In this document: one piece after another, positions 18,367 to 37,992 of the stretch
Layout of the letters: each line of letters opens with the position of its first letter
How positions within the stretch are numbered: position 1 is the stretch's first letter
Assembly (NCBI GenBank): GCA_031296325.1
Contig: JARLFY010000007.1
Span: 1-42,434 of the forward strand
Direction of reading: 5' to 3'
Source: Acidobacteriaceae bacterium
GTDB lineage: Bacteria; Acidobacteriota; Terriglobia; Terriglobales; Acidobacteriaceae
DNA length: 42,434 bases
Program-made: the position numbers and the translations under genes
The notes under the pieces: model-generated
Database searches by the model: none
Seen by the model: only the letters and a program-made list of their open reading frames with translations
Told to the model about the DNA's origin: nothing

Positions 18367-20037
18367 TTGGCAAGGGTCCCTTTTTTGCGCGTGTGGAAGT
18401 GTATCGTTCTGGTTGGATTCGCAGCAGGCAGTGGCGTAGCTTCAGCTCAGGCTCCAGCATCCGCTTCGGCGCAGTCCTCAGCTTCGGTCGCTGCGCCGGT
18501 CAAGCCAGCCGCGCCCGTGCGCAGAGTCTGCGGGGTGAACTCTTCCGCGCCAACTCCCGCAGAGACGGCTCTGAACAGGGGAGACTTCTCCGTCGCAGAG
18601 ACGCTCTTTCGCGCCGTGCTGGCCAAAGCTGTCAACGATGAGGCCGCGCAGGAGGGCCTGATCCGCGCCCTGATCGAGCAGGACAAGGTCGACGAAGCGG
18701 CAAAGAATGTGGAGGTCTGGACGGCGAAGGCTCCCGCCAGTTCGCTGGCCTTGACGGCTCTGGGCGAGGTTCGCTTTCGCCAGGGCAATCTGCGCGATGC
18801 CTACATCCAGTTTCAAAAGGCGTCGCAGGCCGATCCCTGCAATGCGCGCGCCTATCTGGGCATCGCTCATGTGAATGGACTGGCTGGCTTTCACGCTCGC
18901 AGCAAGCGGATGATCGAGCAGGCCTACGCCCTGCACCCCAGCGACGACGAGATCTATAGCTCCTGGATCTATACTCGGCCACGCGCCGAGCGGCTGGTCC
19001 TGTGGAACGAGTACGCCGCGCACAGCGCTCAGGTGAGCGAAGAGAATCGCGCCAAGATGAAGACGAATCTCGCCAAGGAGTCGCTCTACCACGCCTCGGA
19101 CTGCCGCATGGCGCCGACTTCACCGGTCGAGACCAAGGTGCCGATGGTGAAGGTGATGGATGGCCCGACTCGTTTTGTCGGCTGGGGACTGGATGTGAAG
19201 TTCAATGGCAAGGAGCGGCGGCTACAGATCGATACCGGAGCTGGCGGCATCACCATCTCGCGCGCTGCGGCCATGTTCCTCGGCATCCAGCGTCAGGACG
19301 CTACCAAGACCGGAGGCGTCGGCGACAAGGGAGACGTGAATACCTCAATCACCCACGTCGCCAGCGTAAAGATCGGCAACATTGAGTTCACCAACTGCGC
19401 GGTGGAGATTCTGGAGAAGTGGAGCTTGCTCGACTCCGACGGTCTGATTGGGGGCGATGTCTTCGACGCTTCGCAGTTGACGCTGGACTTTCCCAAGCAC
19501 GAGCTGCGCATCGCTCCGCTGCCTCTGCGCCCTGGCGAGACCAAACCCTCCCCCACCGACGACGCGGAGCCCGCGCCACACGATCCCTACGTCGCTCCAG
19601 AAATGGCCAAATGGCAGCCCATCTATCGCAGCGGACATGACCTGCTGATGCCCACCGGAATCGTCGAGACCAAGCGAATACAAGACCCCAGCGCATGGAA
19701 GGATAAGCTCTTCCTTCTGGATACGGGCTCTGAGTCCAATCTCATCTCGCCCGCCGCCGCCAGAGAAGTGACCAAGGTTTCGCGCGACGAGAGCATGGGC
19801 ATTCGCGGCATCTCCGGCGAGGTAGACAAGGTCTACGAGGCAGATAAGTTTACTCTGGCCTTCGCCGGTCTGCGTCTGGATTCGCCCAGCATGACCTCGA
19901 TCGACACAACCAAGTTATCGAATGGCGTGGGCGTGGAGGTCTCTGGCTTTATCGGCGCACCGGCGTTGACCCAGCTCGTCCTGCACATTAACTATCGCGA
20001 CAACCTGGTCTGGTGCGAGTACGCCGCGAAGAAGTAA
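18367..20037 (+). CDS. Exported TPR protein with two retropepsin-like aspartic protease motifs
   Basis: A 556-residue protein with an N-terminal hydrophobic signal segment (CIVLVGFAAGSGVASAQA, cleavage near residue 28). A TPR-like helical region follows (about 60-195), then two aspartic-protease half-domains. The first has the active-site-like DTGAG at Asp289 and the hydrophobic-Gly partner LIGGDVF near 360. The second has DTGSE at Asp452 and GFIGAPAL near 527. Two DTG motifs in one chain recall the bilobed pepsin layout. Function and substrate are unknown; the likely location is the periplasm or cell surface. The TTG at 18367 is preceded by GAGGAG at 6 nt. It begins 31 bp after the methyltransferase gene, possibly in the same transcript. 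Confidence 0.85.
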   Translation: MARVPFLRVWKCIVLVGFAAGSGVASAQAPASASAQSSASVAAPVKPAAPVRRVCGVNSSAPTPAETALNRGDFSVAETLFRAVLAKAVNDEAAQEGLIRALIEQDKVDEAAKNVEVWTAKAPASSLALTALGEVRFRQGNLRDAYIQFQKASQADPCNARAYLGIAHVNGLAGFHARSKRMIEQAYALHPSDDEIYSSWIYTRPRAERLVLWNEYAAHSAQVSEENRAKMKTNLAKESLYHASDCRMAPTSPVETKVPMVKVMDGPTRFVGWGLDVKFNGKERRLQIDTGAGGITISRAAAMFLGIQRQDATKTGGVGDKGDVNTSITHVASVKIGNIEFTNCAVEILEKWSLLDSDGLIGGDVFDASQLTLDFPKHELRIAPLPLRPGETKPSPTDDAEPAPHDPYVAPEMAKWQPIYRSGHDLLMPTGIVETKRIQDPSAWKDKLFLLDTGSESNLISPAAAREVTKVSRDESMGIRGISGEVDKVYEADKFTLAFAGLRLDSPSMTSIDTTKLSNGVGVEVSGFIGAPALTQLVLHINYRDNLVWCEYAAKK

Positions 20038-20047
20038 CGCCATTTCT

Positions 20048-20150
20048 GAATTACTATAGACCGCTTTGTTTGTCATTCCGCAGCGAAGCGGAGGAATCTG
20101 CTTTTCTTCATTCGACGACGGGATCCACCATTACGAGAACTGCTCTAACG
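20048..20150 (+). repeat. Family A repeat module, plus orientation
   Basis: The module reads from GAATTACTATAGACC, through the core TTTGTCATTCCGCAGCGAAG and GGAGGAATCTGCTTTT, to CCATTACGAGAACTGCTCTA. The last element is a mirror of the GAGCATTTT...TAATGG left end of minus-oriented copies. This copy shows the plus strand open in all three frames: FVIPQRSGGICF, LSFRSEAEESAF and CHSAAKRRNLL. Confidence 0.75.
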
Positions 20151-20773: not shown

Positions 20774-20905
20774 TTAGAAATGGCTATAGACCAATTTGTC
20801 TGTCATTCCGCAGCCTCTTTGTTTGTCATTCCGTAGCAAAGCGAAGGAATCTGCTTCTGCTCGCTCTATGGCGGTCTACCCCATCAGCAAATATGCATTC
20901 AAGTA
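20774..20905 (+). repeat. Family A repeat module, plus orientation
   Basis: TTAG (20774-20777) is followed by AAATGGCTATAGACC, then two iterations of TTTGTCATTCCG. The second continues into a full core ending GGAATCTGCTTCTGC, and the module ends GGCGGTCTACCCCATCAGC. It forms the left half of the spacer between the CZB gene and the coiled-coil protein gene. Confidence 0.7.
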
Positions 20906-20992
20906 TTTTCAGCGATGGGGTAAAGTATTGCGCTGCGAGCAAAATACGGGGATTCTTCGCTCCGCTCAGAATGACAAATATCGTCCTGCATT
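20905..20992 (-). repeat. Family A repeat module, ATTCT/AGAAT version
   Basis: Head to head with the previous module: GATGGGGTAAAGTATTGCGC then GCGAGCAAAATACGGGGATT and CTTCGCTCCGCTCAGAATGA. The stem is ATTCT pairing with AGAAT, a compensated form of ATTCC/GGAAT. It shares this version with the copies at about 30060 and 31780. Together the two modules account for most of 20671-21026; no gene is seen there. Confidence 0.7.
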
Positions 20993-21026
20993 ACGGCAAC
21001 TGTGAAAATGCATTCCACTCAGAGTT

Positions 21027-29190: not shown

Positions 29191-29526
29191 GCGCGTATCG
29201 ACATATAGCTCATTTGTGATTGCAGTTGTCCTTGCCTGTTTTTGTTTGTCATTCCGCAGCCGTTTGTGGTGCGAACTGTATTCCTCCCACCCATCTCTGA
29301 TGAAACCGCGATGGATGGGGCACCCGGCACCCGGCGTTTTGATCCGCAGCAGAGCTATAGCACTGGCCTTCAGTCCTTGGTCGTTGTGCTGTGCGTTGCC
29401 CCTAGGCCTTCGGCCTAGGCTGGTATAGGACGGGTCTTTGGCCCTTGCCAGACAAAGACAACAGCAAGAGCAGTCAAGAGAAGAAAGAGTAACGACTGTA
29501 GATCTTGCTCTATAGGTCGATACGGT
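29191..29526 (+). mobile_element. Family B MITE-like element (copy 2)
   Basis: An element of about 336 bp with left end GCGTATCGACATATA and right end CTATAGGTCGATACG. The interior holds, in order, a truncated family A core (TTTGTCATTCCGCAGCC), a family C hairpin (29285-29327) and the CCTAGGCCTTCGGCCTAGG hairpin block. The flanks (TTGG and CTGG) have lost or never had the CTAG seen at other copies. No gene is seen in 29104-29596. Confidence 0.7.
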
Positions 29527-29596: not shown

Positions 29597-30925
29597 CTAG
29601 CGGGTTAGGATGGCTACGGTCTCGATGTGGGTGGTCTGGGGGAAGAGATCGAAGAGATGCAGCTCGGCCAGACGGTAACCGGAAGCGGTGAGCGCGGCGA
29701 GGTCGGCGGGGAGGCGCTCGGGCGAGCAGGAGACGTAGACCAGTCGCGGCGCATTGATGCGGGCCAGCAGAGCGCAGACCTCCGCGCCTGCACCGGTGCG
29801 TGGCGGATCGAGGACGACAAGGTCCGGGCGGTCGCGGTCGAGGACGGCGACGCGCAGGAAGTCCAGCGTGGTGGCTTTGACGGCATGGAGATTCTTGAGC
29901 TTGGTTGCGGCCAGCGCGGCGGCGGCGGGTTCGGCGATCTCGACTGCGGTGACCTGCGCGAAGCCGGTGGTGAGGGCGCGCGAGAAGAGGCCGACTCCGG
30001 CGTAGAGATCGAAGGCCAGCGAATTTTTAGCAAGGGTGTAATGCTTCGCTCCACGAACAAAATGCGGGGATTCTTCGCTCCGCTCAGAATGACAATTCAC
30101 TGCCCCGCCGCGGTCAGAATGAAGATTCTCAACTTGGCCGGTGCGGTCGTTGGCGACGAGCGAGAGAAGTTCGGGGATCAGAAAGCGGTTGGCCTGAAAG
30201 AACGCTCCGCGAGGAACCCAGTAATCGAACTCGGCGACGCGATAGGTCAGGCCGGGTTTGCCCCAGGCTGGGCCGGGACGGGGTAGCTCGTTGCGGCGGC
30301 TGCGCTCCTTGGAGAGGGTGGGAAGGATGGAGATTCCTGCCCCGCTAAGCTCGGGGAGCGTGCTGCGCAGGGTCTCGCAGAGCGCCGTGAAGTCGGCGGC
30401 GAGCTTCCTGGGGAGAACCTTTGCGGCGGTACGAATGTAGAGGGTGAACTGGAGACTGGACTCATCGGCGGCGGTGAAGAGTTCGAGCTGGTCTGGAAGT
30501 TGGTTGGGATTGCGCAGCCAGAGGAGCGGCTGTGCGTTGATCTGCGCGAGAAAGGCTTCGGTGGCTCGCCACAGGATCGGCGCGGCGATGGGGCACTCGC
30601 TGATGGGGAGAAAGGCTGGGGTGTCGTCGGGCGAGGGGACGGCACCGAGGTAGCCAGCGCGAAGCTGGCCATCGACCTCGGCCAGACTGAGGCGGATGCG
30701 ATTGCGGTAGGCCAGCGGCGCGGAGGGATGGAGTTGAAGTTCCGGCAGTTCGAGGTTGGCTGCTTCGAGCTGCGCGCGCAGACGAGCCTGTTTGAGACGG
30801 AGCTGCGTCGCGTAGCTCTGATCCTGAAGCTGGCAGCCGCCGCAAGTGCCGAAGTGTGCGCAGGCTGGAGTGGCGCGGTCTTGCGCCGGAGTCGCTTCTG
30901 CTGCGGGATAGGTTTGATTCGACAT
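29597..30925 (-). CDS. rlmD: 23S rRNA (uracil-5-)-methyltransferase, RlmD/TrmA family
   Basis: An AdoMet-dependent RNA m5U methyltransferase, 442 residues. Cys22, Cys28, Cys31 and Cys111 (CAHFGTCGGCQLQ and SECPIA) form the [4Fe-4S] cluster typical of RlmD/RumA. AdoMet motif I is DLYAGVGLF (306-314), motif IV is DPPRTG (373-378), the nucleophile is Cys400 (YVSCSPERL) and the base is Glu435 (HIETVAIL). The N-terminal TRAM domain of E. coli RlmD is missing. Residues about 266-300, just before motif I, are encoded by an in-frame family A repeat (see NCHSERSEESPHF). RlmC/RlmCD activity is possible. The start lies 3 nt after the stop of the upstream gene. Confidence 0.88.
   Translation of the reverse strand: MSNQTYPAAEATPAQDRATPACAHFGTCGGCQLQDQSYATQLRLKQARLRAQLEAANLELPELQLHPSAPLAYRNRIRLSLAEVDGQLRAGYLGAVPSPDDTPAFLPISECPIAAPILWRATEAFLAQINAQPLLWLRNPNQLPDQLELFTAADESSLQFTLYIRTAAKVLPRKLAADFTALCETLRSTLPELSGAGISILPTLSKERSRRNELPRPGPAWGKPGLTYRVAEFDYWVPRGAFFQANRFLIPELLSLVANDRTGQVENLHSDRGGAVNCHSERSEESPHFVRGAKHYTLAKNSLAFDLYAGVGLFSRALTTGFAQVTAVEIAEPAAAALAATKLKNLHAVKATTLDFLRVAVLDRDRPDLVVLDPPRTGAGAEVCALLARINAPRLVYVSCSPERLPADLAALTASGYRLAELHLFDLFPQTTHIETVAILTR
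30028..30130 (-). repeat. Family A repeat inserted in frame in rlmD
   Basis: The ATTCT/AGAAT version of the core (GGGGATTCTTCGCTCCGCTC then AGAATGAC), with the usual preceding GCGAACAAAATG-like segment, lies wholly inside rlmD. The coding strand carries it in the stop-free orientation, and the frame is kept on both sides. Confidence 0.85.
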
Positions 30926-30928
30926 GGT

Positions 30929-31705
30929 TTAGACCTGATCTTCGTGGGGCATGTAAAAGAGGCTGAGGCGCGGGAGCGAGTAGGCTTCCAGCAAACGTTT
31001 TTGCAGAAACTGCTGCTGCACCTGCTTGATCTGCACGGACTGCATCTTGCCGCGATAGGGAGCCAGTTCGCGGGCGGCTTGTTCTCGTAGAGATACAAGC
31101 TGATCTTCGGGCGCGGCGGTGAGAAGTGCGGCGAAAAGCTTCTCTTCGAGGACGGTGAGGGTGCGGTCGAGAGCTTCTAGGTTCAGGGGAGCAGGTTCGA
31201 GGTTCGAGGGAGAAGCAGATCCCTCCGCGTTGTTGCGGGATGACAACAAAGGGTACGTGGCGGCCAGTTCGCGGAGACGGGATGCGGCTTCGCTGGCGGC
31301 AGTATTGGCGGGTGAGGGCAAATCGGCGGCGGCGGCGAGCAGTGCGGCGTTGCGCTCCAGATAGCGGGCGATGCGATCCTCCTCGAATCCGGATTCGCGG
31401 GACTCGGCAGGCTGGCTGGGCGCGGAGCCAATGGCCGCGTCTCTGGATTGCTCGACGGCTTCGAGAACGGCCTGCGCGCACCAGGCGAGGCCGTTGACCT
31501 TGCGCGGGCGACGGGTTCCGCGCTGGGCCTGTGCGTCGTGTTTGTCGAAGGCCGCGTCGATGCCGCACAGGACGGCCTCAAGCGGAATGCCCGCCTCGCG
31601 CCATGTCTCGATCAGCGCCCAGTCGAGCGTGGAGAGCATGAGCAGAGAGCCGCGCCGCTGCTGGAAGCGCTCCTCGATCTCGGTAAAGTAATTGAAGTAA
31701 TTCAT
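30929..31705 (-). CDS. Conserved-looking cytosolic protein of unknown function
   Basis: A 258-residue protein that is Ala/Leu/Glu-rich and mostly helical, with no signal peptide or membrane segment. The N-terminus (MNYFNYFTEIEERFQQRRG then LLMLSTLDWALIETWREAG) and the C-terminus (KQVQQQFLQKRLLEAYSLPRL) look well structured; the middle is Ala/Ser-rich. I recall similar hypothetical proteins in Acidobacteriota but no function. Residues about 152-175 are encoded by an in-frame family A plus E repeat. The stop codon is 3 nt before rlmD, so the two are almost certainly cotranscribed and perhaps functionally linked. Confidence 0.75.
   Translation of the reverse strand: MNYFNYFTEIEERFQQRRGSLLMLSTLDWALIETWREAGIPLEAVLCGIDAAFDKHDAQAQRGTRRPRKVNGLAWCAQAVLEAVEQSRDAAIGSAPSQPAESRESGFEEDRIARYLERNAALLAAAADLPSPANTAASEAASRLRELAATYPLLSSRNNAEGSASPSNLEPAPLNLEALDRTLTVLEEKLFAALLTAAPEDQLVSLREQAARELAPYRGKMQSVQIKQVQQQFLQKRLLEAYSLPRLSLFYMPHEDQV
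31176..31252 (-). repeat. Family E plus family A repeat inserted in frame in the gene before rlmD
   Basis: GGTTCAGGGGAGCAGGTTCG followed by AGGTTCGAGGG (family E) runs directly into AAGCAGATCCCTCCGCGTTG then TTGCGGGATGACAACAAA (family A, ATCCC/GGGAT version). The inserted residues read LLSSRNNAEGSAS. The loop differs from the consensus (GTTGTT for TTCGCT), while the stem CCGC/GCGG is kept. Confidence 0.8.
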
Positions 31706-31734: not shown

Positions 31735-31852
31735 CTAGAGCATTTTGATAATGGTATAGACCATAGCAGCGCGAACAAAATGCGGGGATTCTTCGCTTCG
31801 CTCAGAATGACAATTCATTTCTTGGTCGATAGCGATTCCTAACACACTCTAG
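31735..31852 (-). repeat. CTAG-flanked family A module
   Basis: CTAG (31735-31738), left end AGCATTTTGATAATGGTATA followed by GACC, the ATTCT/AGAAT core, right end GGTCGATAGCGATTCC, and CTAG again (31849-31852). The inner 110 bp are therefore bounded by identical tetranucleotides. The coaX TAG stop codon is inside the right CTAG. It fills the coaX to unknown-gene spacer. Confidence 0.75.
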
Positions 31853-34794: not shown

Positions 34795-37700
34795 CTAGTT
34801 GTTCTCCGGCAGGGCTTCGAGGGCGGCTTTGGTCTTGTCGTGGAGGGTGCGGGTCTCGGCGGCTTGCTTGCGTAGACCTTCGACGATGTGTGCCGGAGCC
34901 TTGGCCATAAAGGCCTCGTTGCTCAGTTGGCGTTCGGCGGCGACGAGTCCCTTTTCGTACTTGGCGAGGTCTTTGGTCAGGCGCTCGCGCTCGGCGGGAA
35001 TGTCGATCTGGCGCTCGTAGACGACGGCTACGTCGAAGGTCGCCGTGCCGCGCGCGTTGTTGCCGGTGAGGGCGACGTCGGAGACCTTGATGTCGCTGAC
35101 GCGGGCGAGTTTGGCCAGAATGTCCTGATTCCACTGGATGGCATTCAGCGTCTGCTCGTCGCCGTGAATGAGGATCGGCGCAGACTCCTTGTCGGGAACT
35201 CCCAGTTCCTTGCGCAGGCCGCGCAGGATGGTGATGAGCTCTTGCAGGGTCTGCATCTCGGTGAGAGCGGCCTGGTCGCAGACGTAGTCCTCGGGCTGCG
35301 GGTAGCGGGTAAGAGCGATGGACTTGGCCGGAGGCAGGCCAGCATAGAGCGCGTGCCAGATCTCCTCGGTGAGGAAGGGCATGAAGGGCGAGAGCAGGCG
35401 CAGGGCCGACTCGAAGACCGCGATGAAGGTGGTGAGAGCGGAGGTGGTCTGTGCGACGGACTCCTCGGCGTCCTCGCAGGTGGGGAAGGGCAGATCGTTG
35501 GTCGGCTCGAAGTTGAGGCGGAGCTTGACGATTTCGAGATACCAGTCGCAGAGATCGCCCCAGAAGAACTGATAGATCGCGCTGGCTGCCTCGTCGAAGC
35601 GGTAGTCGTCGAGGGCGCGATGAACTTCGGCGGAGACGGCGTTGAGGCGAGAGAGAATCCAGCGGGATTCGAGGGCGTCGGTGGTCGATCCCACCCATCG
35701 CGGTGAAACTGCGATGGATGGGGCACCCGAATCTGTAGCCGGATTCATGATGGACTCATGTGTTGGCAGGATGACTTCGATGCCAGCCTCTTTGGCGCGC
35801 TCCACGTTCATGAAGAGAAAGCGGGCGGCGTTCCAGATCTTGTTGGCGAAGGCGCGATTGCCCTCGGTACGAGCCTCGCTGAAGGCGATGTCGGTGCCGG
35901 GGGAGGCCATGCTGGCGAGCGTGAAGCGCACTGCATCCGTGCCGAAGCGCTCGATGATCTCGATCGGGTCGATGACGTTGCCCTTGGTCTTCGACATCTT
36001 CTGGCGATCGGCGTCGCGGACCAGAGCGTGAATGTAGACCTCGCGGAAGGGGACGGCTTCGGCAAGGGTGCGCGGCGAACCGTCGGCCATCGGAACGTCC
36101 AGCATGAAGTGGGTTCCCAGCATAATCATGCGCGCAACCCAGAAGAAGAGAATGTCGAAGCCAGTGACTAGGACCGAGGTCGGGTAGAAGGCCGCGAGGT
36201 CTGGGGTGAGTGTAGAAGCAGATCCCTCCGCTTCGCTGCGGGATGACAACAAAGTAGCGTTGGTAGCTCCGGGCCAGCCGAAGACGGTGAAGGGGAGCAG
36301 GCCGGAGGAGAACCAGGTGTCCAGAACGTCGGTCTCCTGCGTGATGTTGGCCGAGCCGCAGGTGGAGCAGGCGGTGGGCGTCTCGCGGGAGACGGTGAGG
36401 GCGCGGCAGTCGGCGCAGTGCCACGCGGGAATGCGATGGCCCCACCAGAGTTGGCGAGAGATGCACCAGTCATGGATGTTGTTCATCCACTCGAAGTAGG
36501 TCTTGGAGTACATCTCCGGGGTGAACTTGATGTGGCCCTCGCGCACGGCGGCCACGGCCTTCGCAGCGATGGAGTCTCCGCCGGCGGCGGGAGCCTTGTT
36601 GACGGCGAGGAACCACTGCATCGACAGGCGCGGCTCGATGACGGCTCCCGAGCGCTGCGAGAGGGCGACGGCGTGGTTGTGATCCTTGATGTCGACCAGC
36701 AGACCGGCGGCCTGTAGGTCGGCGACGATCTTCTCGCGCGCGGCAAAGCGATCCAGCCCGTGGTACGGCGAGCCGGGCAGGTCGATATGGGCCGAGGTGT
36801 CGAGGATCGTGATCGAGGCAAGCCCGTGACGCTGGCCGATGGCGAAGTCGTTGGGGTCATGCGCAGGCGTGACCTTGACCGCTCCGGTGCCGAACTCGGG
36901 CTGCGCCCAGTCGTCGGCGAGGACGGGAATCTCGCGATTGGCAGAGCCAGAGACGCCGCTCAGGGGCAGCGCGATCAACTTGCCGATCATGGCGGTGTAG
37001 CGCGGATCGGTCGGGTTGACGGCTACGGCAGTATCGCCCAGCATCGTCTCCGGGCGCGTGGTGGCGACGACGATCTCGCCGCTTCCGTCCGCGAAGGGGT
37101 AACTAATGTGATACAGCTTGCCGAGGCGTTCCTCGTGGACGACTTCCAGATCGGAGACGGCGGTCTGCTGGATGGGATCCCAATTAACGATGTAGCTGCC
37201 GCGATAGATGAGGCCCTGTTCATACAGACGAACGAAGGACTCCTTGACCGCTACGTTGAGGTGGTCGTCCATGGTGAAGTACTCGCGCGACCAATCGACG
37301 CTGGCCCCGAGCCGACGCATCTGGTCGGTGATCGCCGAGCCGTACTGGCGCTTCCACTCCCAGACGCGGTCGGTAAATGCGTCGCGGCCCAACTGCTTGC
37401 GCGAGGAACCTTCGCTGGCAAGCTGGCGCTCGACCATCATCTGCGTGGCGATGCCGGCGTGATCGGTGCCGGGAACCCAGAGCGATCTCTGCCCGCGCAT
37501 GCGGTGCCAGCGGGTGAGAATGTCCATCTCCGTCTGGTTGAGCATGTGGCCCATGTGCAGACGCCCGGTGACGTTGGGCGGAGGCAGCAGTTGGGTGAAG
37601 GCGGCGGAGCGGTTCTCCCCCGTGTCTTGCGGCGCGGCAGCGCCTGACTCTGCGGCGGGGCTGGGAACTGCGAAGAGCTTTTCTGCGACCCAATACTCGG

Positions 37701-37806
37701 CCCAGCGGCGCTCGATGATCGAGGGATCATAGGCCTTGGGAAGGTTGCTGGCAGAGGACTCGGCGGGCGACTGGGCGGGCGATTTGGAGTTTTTTTCGTG
37801 GCTCAT
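34795..37806 (-). CDS. valS: Valyl-tRNA synthetase
   Basis: A class I aminoacyl-tRNA synthetase of 1003 residues that charges tRNA-Val and edits threonine. HIGH motif: PPPNVTGRLHMGHML (HMGH at 84-87). KMSKS motif: DRQKMSKTKGNVIDP. The CP1 editing domain includes ARPETMLGDTA-like TTRPETMLGDTAVAVN, and a zinc-ribbon-like CADC...CSTCG precedes ETDVLDTWFSSGLLPF. The anticodon-binding domain (SRWILSRLN...DEAASAIYQFFWGDLCDWYLE) and a C-terminal coiled coil complete it. Two stretches are foreign to the family: residues about 517-531, from an in-frame family A repeat, and about 693-707, from a family C repeat. It probably heads the nadC-birA-coaX gene group. Confidence 0.96.
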   Translation of the reverse strand: MSHEKNSKSPAQSPAESSASNLPKAYDPSIIERRWAEYWVAEKLFAVPSPAAESGAAAPQDTGENRSAAFTQLLPPPNVTGRLHMGHMLNQTEMDILTRWHRMRGQRSLWVPGTDHAGIATQMMVERQLASEGSSRKQLGRDAFTDRVWEWKRQYGSAITDQMRRLGASVDWSREYFTMDDHLNVAVKESFVRLYEQGLIYRGSYIVNWDPIQQTAVSDLEVVHEERLGKLYHISYPFADGSGEIVVATTRPETMLGDTAVAVNPTDPRYTAMIGKLIALPLSGVSGSANREIPVLADDWAQPEFGTGAVKVTPAHDPNDFAIGQRHGLASITILDTSAHIDLPGSPYHGLDRFAAREKIVADLQAAGLLVDIKDHNHAVALSQRSGAVIEPRLSMQWFLAVNKAPAAGGDSIAAKAVAAVREGHIKFTPEMYSKTYFEWMNNIHDWCISRQLWWGHRIPAWHCADCRALTVSRETPTACSTCGSANITQETDVLDTWFSSGLLPFTVFGWPGATNATLLSSRSEAEGSASTLTPDLAAFYPTSVLVTGFDILFFWVARMIMLGTHFMLDVPMADGSPRTLAEAVPFREVYIHALVRDADRQKMSKTKGNVIDPIEIIERFGTDAVRFTLASMASPGTDIAFSEARTEGNRAFANKIWNAARFLFMNVERAKEAGIEVILPTHESIMNPATDSGAPSIAVSPRWVGSTTDALESRWILSRLNAVSAEVHRALDDYRFDEAASAIYQFFWGDLCDWYLEIVKLRLNFEPTNDLPFPTCEDAEESVAQTTSALTTFIAVFESALRLLSPFMPFLTEEIWHALYAGLPPAKSIALTRYPQPEDYVCDQAALTEMQTLQELITILRGLRKELGVPDKESAPILIHGDEQTLNAIQWNQDILAKLARVSDIKVSDVALTGNNARGTATFDVAVVYERQIDIPAERERLTKDLAKYEKGLVAAERQLSNEAFMAKAPAHIVEGLRKQAAETRTLHDKTKAALEALPENN
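35688..35730. repeat. Family C hairpin inserted in frame in valS
   Basis: CCCACCCATCGCGGTGAAAC followed by TGCGATGGATGGGGCACCCG, with a stem CCATCGC/GCGATGG. Other copies lie at 22187-22237, 29285-29327 and 42290-42334. In valS it encodes GAPSIAVSPRWVGS just before the anticodon-binding domain. Confidence 0.85.
36212..36256 (-). repeat. Family A repeat inserted in frame in valS
   Basis: GAAGCAGATCCCTCCGCTTC followed by GCTGCGGGATGACAACAAAG, the ATCCC/GGGAT version. It encodes LLSSRSEAEGSAS between GWPGAT and DLAAFYPTSVLVTG, which are normally almost adjacent in valyl-tRNA synthetases. Confidence 0.88.
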
Positions 37807-37992
37807 GGCTAAGATTCAAGGGTAGCACTGGAGCGCAGGGCTGGACAGGCTCGCAGGCGGCTGAGCAAGGGAATTATTTATGGCTCGCCGGACAGCGGTA
37901 TTGGGCTATTGCGTTCGTCCTTCGCAGATTCCTGCGGTCTGCGCGGCAAGAACGGCTCGGGACGTTGCCGGGTGCGATATTCTGGAAGCTCT

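Follow-up and report, generated by a model that had tools for sequence, protein, structure and literature searches.

Rickettsia provides the best-known instances of selfish repeats that have turned into protein sequence, and additional REP examples have been published for several other bacteria. Rickettsia palindromic elements (RPEs) are 100-150 bp long, occur in many copies and lie in frame in housekeeping genes, at exposed positions (PMC3767692, PMC3733652, PMC10969869). RPE-4, RPE-6 and RPE-7 share the motif ATGAC (PMC3767692), RPE-4 and RPE-6 are CGTC-type REPs (PMC3733652), and a 2024 review treats the RPE mode as conceivable outside Rickettsia and records ERIC copies inside genes (PMC10969869). 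CGTC-tagged REPs, according to Di Nocera et al. 2013 (PMC3733652), have a terminal CGTC that is often TGTC, an 8-9 bp stem starting AT/AT, a 4-5 nt loop, with other loops allowed in some species, and a CCA-like tail. The same paper reports members inside genes of free-living bacteria (Opitutus, Thauera, Stenotrophomonas and others), lists these repeats for five phyla, Acidobacteria not among them, and reports that Acidobacteria have tyrosine transposases whose long terminal inverted repeats (TIRs) are unrelated to REPs. Bacterial MITEs measure 70-300 bp, with inverted ends of 15-30 bp and no coding capacity (PMC3733652).

The window, which is the whole 42,434-nucleotide stretch of Acidobacteriaceae DNA analysed here (GCA_031296325.1, contig JARLFY010000007.1), contains a repeat termed family A, scattered through the genome of this soil bacterium, that shares features with each of these systems. 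Set beside RPEs by their published description, it is likewise an element (about 116 bp) present in many copies and in frame in unrelated housekeeping genes, and its core ends in the ATGAC of RPE-4, RPE-6 and RPE-7; it differs in belonging to another phylum, in its inverted ends TAGAGCATTT and in its probable TA target. By analogy, the mode of life of family A is like that of the RPEs. Its [C/T]GTC tag, AT..AT stem start, members inside genes and lack of linkage to Y1 transposase genes recall the CGTC-tagged REPs, whereas its 3-nt GNA loop, two unpaired bases on each stem side, CCC tail and embedding of the core in a longer TIR element set it apart. Its size range, inverted ends and absence of its own coding capacity match bacterial MITEs (ERIC, RUP, NEMIS, Nezha), but its inverted ends are shorter than the 15-30 bp given for that class, and the REP core within one backbone can be of either type, A or B. 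Family A, like the REP/REPIN sequences associated with RAYT, is a short, palindrome-like repeat in many copies; unlike them, it has no GTAG tag, occurs rarely beside the Y1 genes of relatives and comes from a genome in which no RAYT was found.

The parallel to Rickettsia drawn in the preliminary description holds, but it extends to the in-gene REPs published for other bacteria, so that the phenomenon itself is already known. A search of open-licence literature found no paper containing GTCATTCTGAGCG or HSERSEES, and no report of in-gene repeats in Acidobacteriota in that literature, including the available portions of PMC3733652, PMC10969869, PMC6006769 and PMC3767692. What looks new is the family itself, together with its TIR/TA anatomy and the phylum that hosts it.

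The RlmD-family gene and its insert

An open reading frame on the minus strand (29597-30925) encodes a 442-residue (uracil-5-)methyltransferase of the RlmD/RumA family. RlmD/RumA is its best NCBIfam model, but the score of 150.7 bits is below the cutoff of 183.55 and the product is therefore labelled RlmD-family only. PF05958 matches residues 305-441, and the alignment profile of the protein matches the SP_1029 methyltransferase (5xj1) and RumA (1uwv). The catalytic Cys and Glu, motif I and DPPR are all kept, as the preliminary description had stated, with C400 and E435 among the invariant alignment columns. The proteins of the window and of five relatives (L039-L043) begin just before the Cys motif and seemingly have no counterpart of the N-terminal TRAM domain found in L012 and L013, among others.

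Alignment to homologues delimits, immediately ahead of AdoMet motif I, a net inserted segment of 114 nt (30020-30133, minus strand) that adds 38 codons in frame, residues 265-302 (VENLHSDRGGAVNCHSERSEESPHFVRGAKHYTLAKNS), and includes the peptide NCHSERSEESPHF. The insertion of a repeat at this position had been proposed earlier and is borne out by the open frame across the segment and by its match to the element profile (E 8.5e-24), although the gain is slightly more than the 35 or so residues first estimated. In an orthologue comparison set beforehand as a check, the insert peptide was absent from all homologues fetched (0/34; 29 from the 187 family genomes with a match, plus five named records). 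A pattern that reads 33 of these homologues puts FFQxN 26-31 residues from motif I in 32 and 49 residues away in the remaining one, L017, against 64 in the window protein; L028, which that pattern does not read, likewise has no insert. The five closest homologues (records named Granulicella sp. and Acidobacteria bacterium), 66-77% identical, run from RTG directly to LA(F/W)DLYAG bar at most five residues, reading RTGQLAFDLYAG or similar. An ancestral domain was rejected as the origin of the segment.

Repeat-like inserts occur in this gene elsewhere in the family. At the identical site, the distantly related L017 (genome G009) has some 23 residues from a different repeat-like insert (PERSRRDAR, DNA CCTGAGCGAAGTCGAAGGGACGC). 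At other places in the gene, ahead of YWLP or FWVP, L042 and L043 contain family-A-like DNA (GTCATTCTG...AAGAATCCCCGCATT) whose reading frame differs from that in the window; L043 also has two copies of the palindrome GGTGCCCCACGTCTGG. In the catalytic domain of L042 there is also a 20-residue tandem duplication (ALAARFTQVIAVEIAEPAAS twice).

An AlphaFold2 model built with 56 homologues (mean pLDDT 86.9, pTM 0.86) places the insert in a predicted disordered loop, with pLDDT below 50 at residues 262-293, between a helix (250-259) and the strand (303-307) that carries motif I. Pairwise dN/dS of the gene against L039-L041 is 0.17-0.33 in both halves, a value that spans the whole period since the split from these relatives and not only the time after insertion. 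Selection on the flanks of the insert is purifying. Together with the kept catalytic residues and the modelled loop, this supports the earlier suggestion of a gene that is probably functional with an added loop, and the enzyme most likely still works despite the insert.

Anatomy and copies of family A

The RlmD insert is one whole, worn copy of an element of about 116 bp in which a CGTC-like REP core lies between terminal inverted repeats. The profile used was built with nhmmer from 26 full-length intergenic copies, which included both intergenic family A copies of the window and left out the RlmD copy. It matches the complete worn element with its flanking dinucleotides at 30017-30132 on the minus strand (hmm 3-112 of 116, 78.5 bits), and the exact core GATTCTTCGCTNCGCTCAGAATGAC occupies 30069-30093 on the plus strand and encodes HSERSEES on the minus strand. 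The two intergenic copies, themselves profile-building copies, are full-length elements on the minus strand at 20899-21015 (93.0 bits) and, with both TIR ends, at 31736-31851 (96.7 bits), and over 75 nt they share 79% and 81% identity with the RlmD copy. The exact 25-base cores in the window start at 20951, 30069 and 31787, so the intergenic repeats previously noted near 20950 and 31785 are confirmed. Besides the RlmD copy, five near-full-length profile matches with E below 1e-6 lie in the window, consisting of these two building copies and three elements with the core of a second family, B; one of the latter, at 20035-20147 on the plus strand (hmm 5-116, E 2.5e-10), has the TIR backbone of family A around the family B core GTCATTCCGCAGCGAAGCGGAGGAATCTGC.

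The 25-base core, with at most three mismatches, has 161 matches in the 2.6 Mb genome and none for the reversed control, which excludes chance as the source, and 52 of 62 genus genomes match a 73-base query. Alignment of 89 exact copies shows conservation extending past the core to inverted ends TAGAGCATTT and AAATGCTCTA about 116 bp apart, the modal element length being 116 bp. Both TIR ends (at most 3 mismatches of 10) are present in 34/88 copies versus 1/88 for the reversed motif, and the single ends in 46 and 60 of 88 copies versus 9 and 13. The RlmD, PgeF, glycerate kinase and L199 copies have ends exactly 116 bp apart at this threshold.

The core reads TGTC-ATTCT-GA-GC-GNA-GC-GA-AGAAT-CCC, with 5 + 2 pairs around a two-base internal loop, a 3-nt GNA loop and a CCC tail. 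Among the 89 copies GTC is preceded by T in every case (89/89), and the loop base N is A in 20, C in 24, G in 23 and T in 22. The sequence GCGNAGC is known as an exceptionally stable mini-hairpin in DNA. The 30-nt core folds no better than its shuffles (z -0.08 to -0.52); for whole copies, z is -1.11 in RlmD, -2.51 and -0.58 in the intergenic window copies and -6.07 in L187, a copy picked for its intact ends and the only one of the four to fold strongly as a palindrome. Of the REP-like hairpin given in the preliminary description, the REP core thus stands as part of a TIR-bounded element of about 116 bp, but the hairpin is weak in the RlmD copy.

Repeats inside other genes

The RlmD insert does not stand alone. 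It is one of nine in-frame genic copies among the 89 exact cores, and a second family has entered ValS and MnmG. The copies placed were the 89 exact cores among the 161 core matches, located in the window and 74 further stretches (352 kb), and gene models came from a home-made codon score, so that copies in broken genes were counted as intergenic. Ten of the 89 cores overlap gene models. Nine are internal and in frame, with coding signal on both sides, in genes for MnmG, an EamA family protein, glycerate 2-kinase (DUF4147), a protein of no family (L199), Tgt, MurD, an M1 aminopeptidase, PgeF and the RlmD-family enzyme; three of the nine reading frames (L188, L199 and L216) run off the fetched DNA. 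The tenth lies at the N-terminus of a GH28 enzyme. Both TIR ends are visible in only 4/10 genic copies, the rest being cores with other flanks. With the same model, 82% of the DNA lying over 500 bp from any copy is coding, and against this background the 10/89 genic cores (binomial 4e-48) show that genes are strongly avoided.

Several of these sites are shorter in relatives. The MurD site measures 33 residues in 8/8 aligned relatives, which have no insert, versus 68 in this genome; the comparison covered ten genomes, of which G237 and G226 were kept out of the alignment as split or partial. MurD of G237 may have an insert of its own, as its match spans the site with fewer missing residues than the others. 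PgeF has 40-60 residues in seven aligned relatives versus 90 here, the eighth (L296) being unaligned. At the Tgt site, with nine aligned rows, five are short (L254, L255 and L257-L259), L256 is nearly so, and L251 and L252 have other segments; in L253 (G237), CNSGRSEEPREF occupies the same place as the insert of this genome, and the Tgt insertion may therefore be shared and worn. The CHSERSEESPHF site of MnmG is a short loop in 7 of 10 rows (nine genomes) and the other three have different segments. MnmG of this genome (L162, 1218-3494) contains three repeat-derived stretches in three loops, in the order B, A, B, the two family B stretches having 2 and 4 mismatches of 30. Near residue 150 of MnmG, L271 and L278 carry cores that differ from family A at a single position and are read in the LRSAQND frame; L279 has another REP-like peptide there. 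The MnmG loops that host repeats here hold other repeat-like segments in relatives.

Family B is present in 51 copies (at most 5 mismatches of 30) in the fetched DNA; five are inside gene models, three of them with clear coding signal on both sides. In the window, a family B core lies in frame (36211-36270, minus strand) within the valyl-tRNA synthetase gene (34798-37815, minus strand), where the insert ATLLSSRSEAEGSAS separates GWP from the TPDLAAFYPT stretch; the segment is absent from 1gax, the one solved ValS compared. The reading frame next to the RlmD-family gene (30929-31705, minus strand), which has no Pfam match, holds a likely family B remnant, LLSSRNNAEGSAS, in frame on the minus strand at 31211-31249.

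The lineage has repeats in MnmG, Tgt, MurD, ValS, RlmD and PgeF, and the closest relatives with a name are assigned to Granulicella, for which species have been described. Since sister species offer an empty site and certain loops have been hit repeatedly, target choice, protein tolerance and the missing transposase become directly testable outside obligate pathogens. Annotators should be aware that unusual loops in enzymes of Acidobacteriota, CHSERSEESPHF for instance, are repeats.

Target site, mobility and alternative origins

We put the probability at roughly 85% that a non-autonomous MITE-like element inserted at TA in the RlmD gene and added a tolerated disordered loop. The element would comprise about 112 bp between TA dinucleotides, with inverted ends and the CGTC-like REP core in the middle, and would have been moved by a transposase acting in trans. 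Insertion would have taken place at the TA of a TTA (Leu) codon, in the loop that joins helix 250-259 to the motif I strand; duplication of TA would bring the net gain to 114 nt, or 38 whole codons, and as the element is stop-free in the frame read (the L187 copy, in the RlmD phase, has no stop across 38 codons), the enzyme would have gained a hydrophilic, disordered loop (CHSERSEESPHF..). Selection would have purged gene-breaking insertions and retained those in loops, and the RlmD insert itself is probably neutral baggage. An autonomous partner of family A, if present in the genus, would carry the ends GAGCATTT.

Three of five close relatives (L039, L040 and L043) have a TTA codon exactly at the insertion point, the other two having none; the empty site of the three reads CAG/CAA-TTA-GCT/GCG, and the window reads CAA-GTT-[GAG...]-CTG-GCC. 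These TTA codons fit a TA insertion with TA duplication (112 bp giving a net +114 nt), which is not thereby proven. The dinucleotides flanking the RlmD copy are TT on the left and TG on the right in the coding sense, versus TA/TA in the element model, and because these flanks are worn the target duplication is one that we infer. The PgeF copy has TA on the left and TC on the right. Also weighing against the insertion model, net length is divisible by three in 13/30 full-length copies, which hardly exceeds one third.

It is possible, though doubtful, that the element is further adapted to genic life by its TA target, exact gain of 38 codons and stop-free hydrophilic frame behind NTA. The HSERSEES frame is used by 7/9 internal copies versus 43/115 open frames (binomial 0.017, a small sample in which the 9 are included in the 115). 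The 30 full-length intergenic copies give 28 readings that are open from end to end, and 16 of these have the HSERSEES-frame label. If true, a gene-adapted element can spread as extended loops within acidobacteriaceal housekeeping genes and so supply new protein loops, as the three repeat-derived inserts in MnmG of this genome would illustrate.

The closest competitor to MITE-like insertion is a REP/REPIN of the RAYT type, in which a tyrosine transposase of the genus mobilises the repeat and what look like TIRs are old flanking DNA. Y1_Tnp genes are present in 51/62 genus genomes, core-like repeats lie near a Y1 gene in 5/28 loci by profile, and conservation among the copies is highest in the core, though these were chosen by exact core. 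Nevertheless, profile searches of this genome (G000, assembly 88.8% complete) found no RAYT (Y1_Tnp, PF01797) despite the 161 core matches, and no IS630-type transposase (DDE_3, PF13358). The family A core, at up to four mismatches, occurs in just 2/20 Y1 loci of relatives (1.4-5.6 kb), and those Y1 genes have different inverted repeats at their flanks, for example GGGTGCCCCATTCATG. In PMC3733652, CGTC repeats are also found unlinked to transposase genes, with a few coincidental exceptions. We regard mobilisation by a RAYT as unlikely.

Less likely still, the RlmD segment could be a selected, functional loop, for example one altering rRNA or partner binding; it adjoins motif I and stayed open though its ends are worn, but the same peptide occurs in unrelated proteins, the segment is modelled as disordered and homologues manage without it. 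A pseudogene, or a misjoin in a metagenome bin of 94 contigs and 88.8% completeness where repeats can cause such errors, is the least credible origin, and both were rejected: the frame is open with catalytic residues kept and dN/dS of 0.17-0.33, both flanks belong to the same gene, and similar inserts occur in separate assemblies (RlmD of L042 and L043, MnmG of L271 and L278).

A further repeat, CGCGATGGATGGGGCACCCG, is found in the window at 29301-29330, 35704, 42307 and 22205. It resembles the GGGTGCCCCATTCATG inverted repeats beside the Y1 genes of relatives and may therefore represent a RAYT-linked family here.
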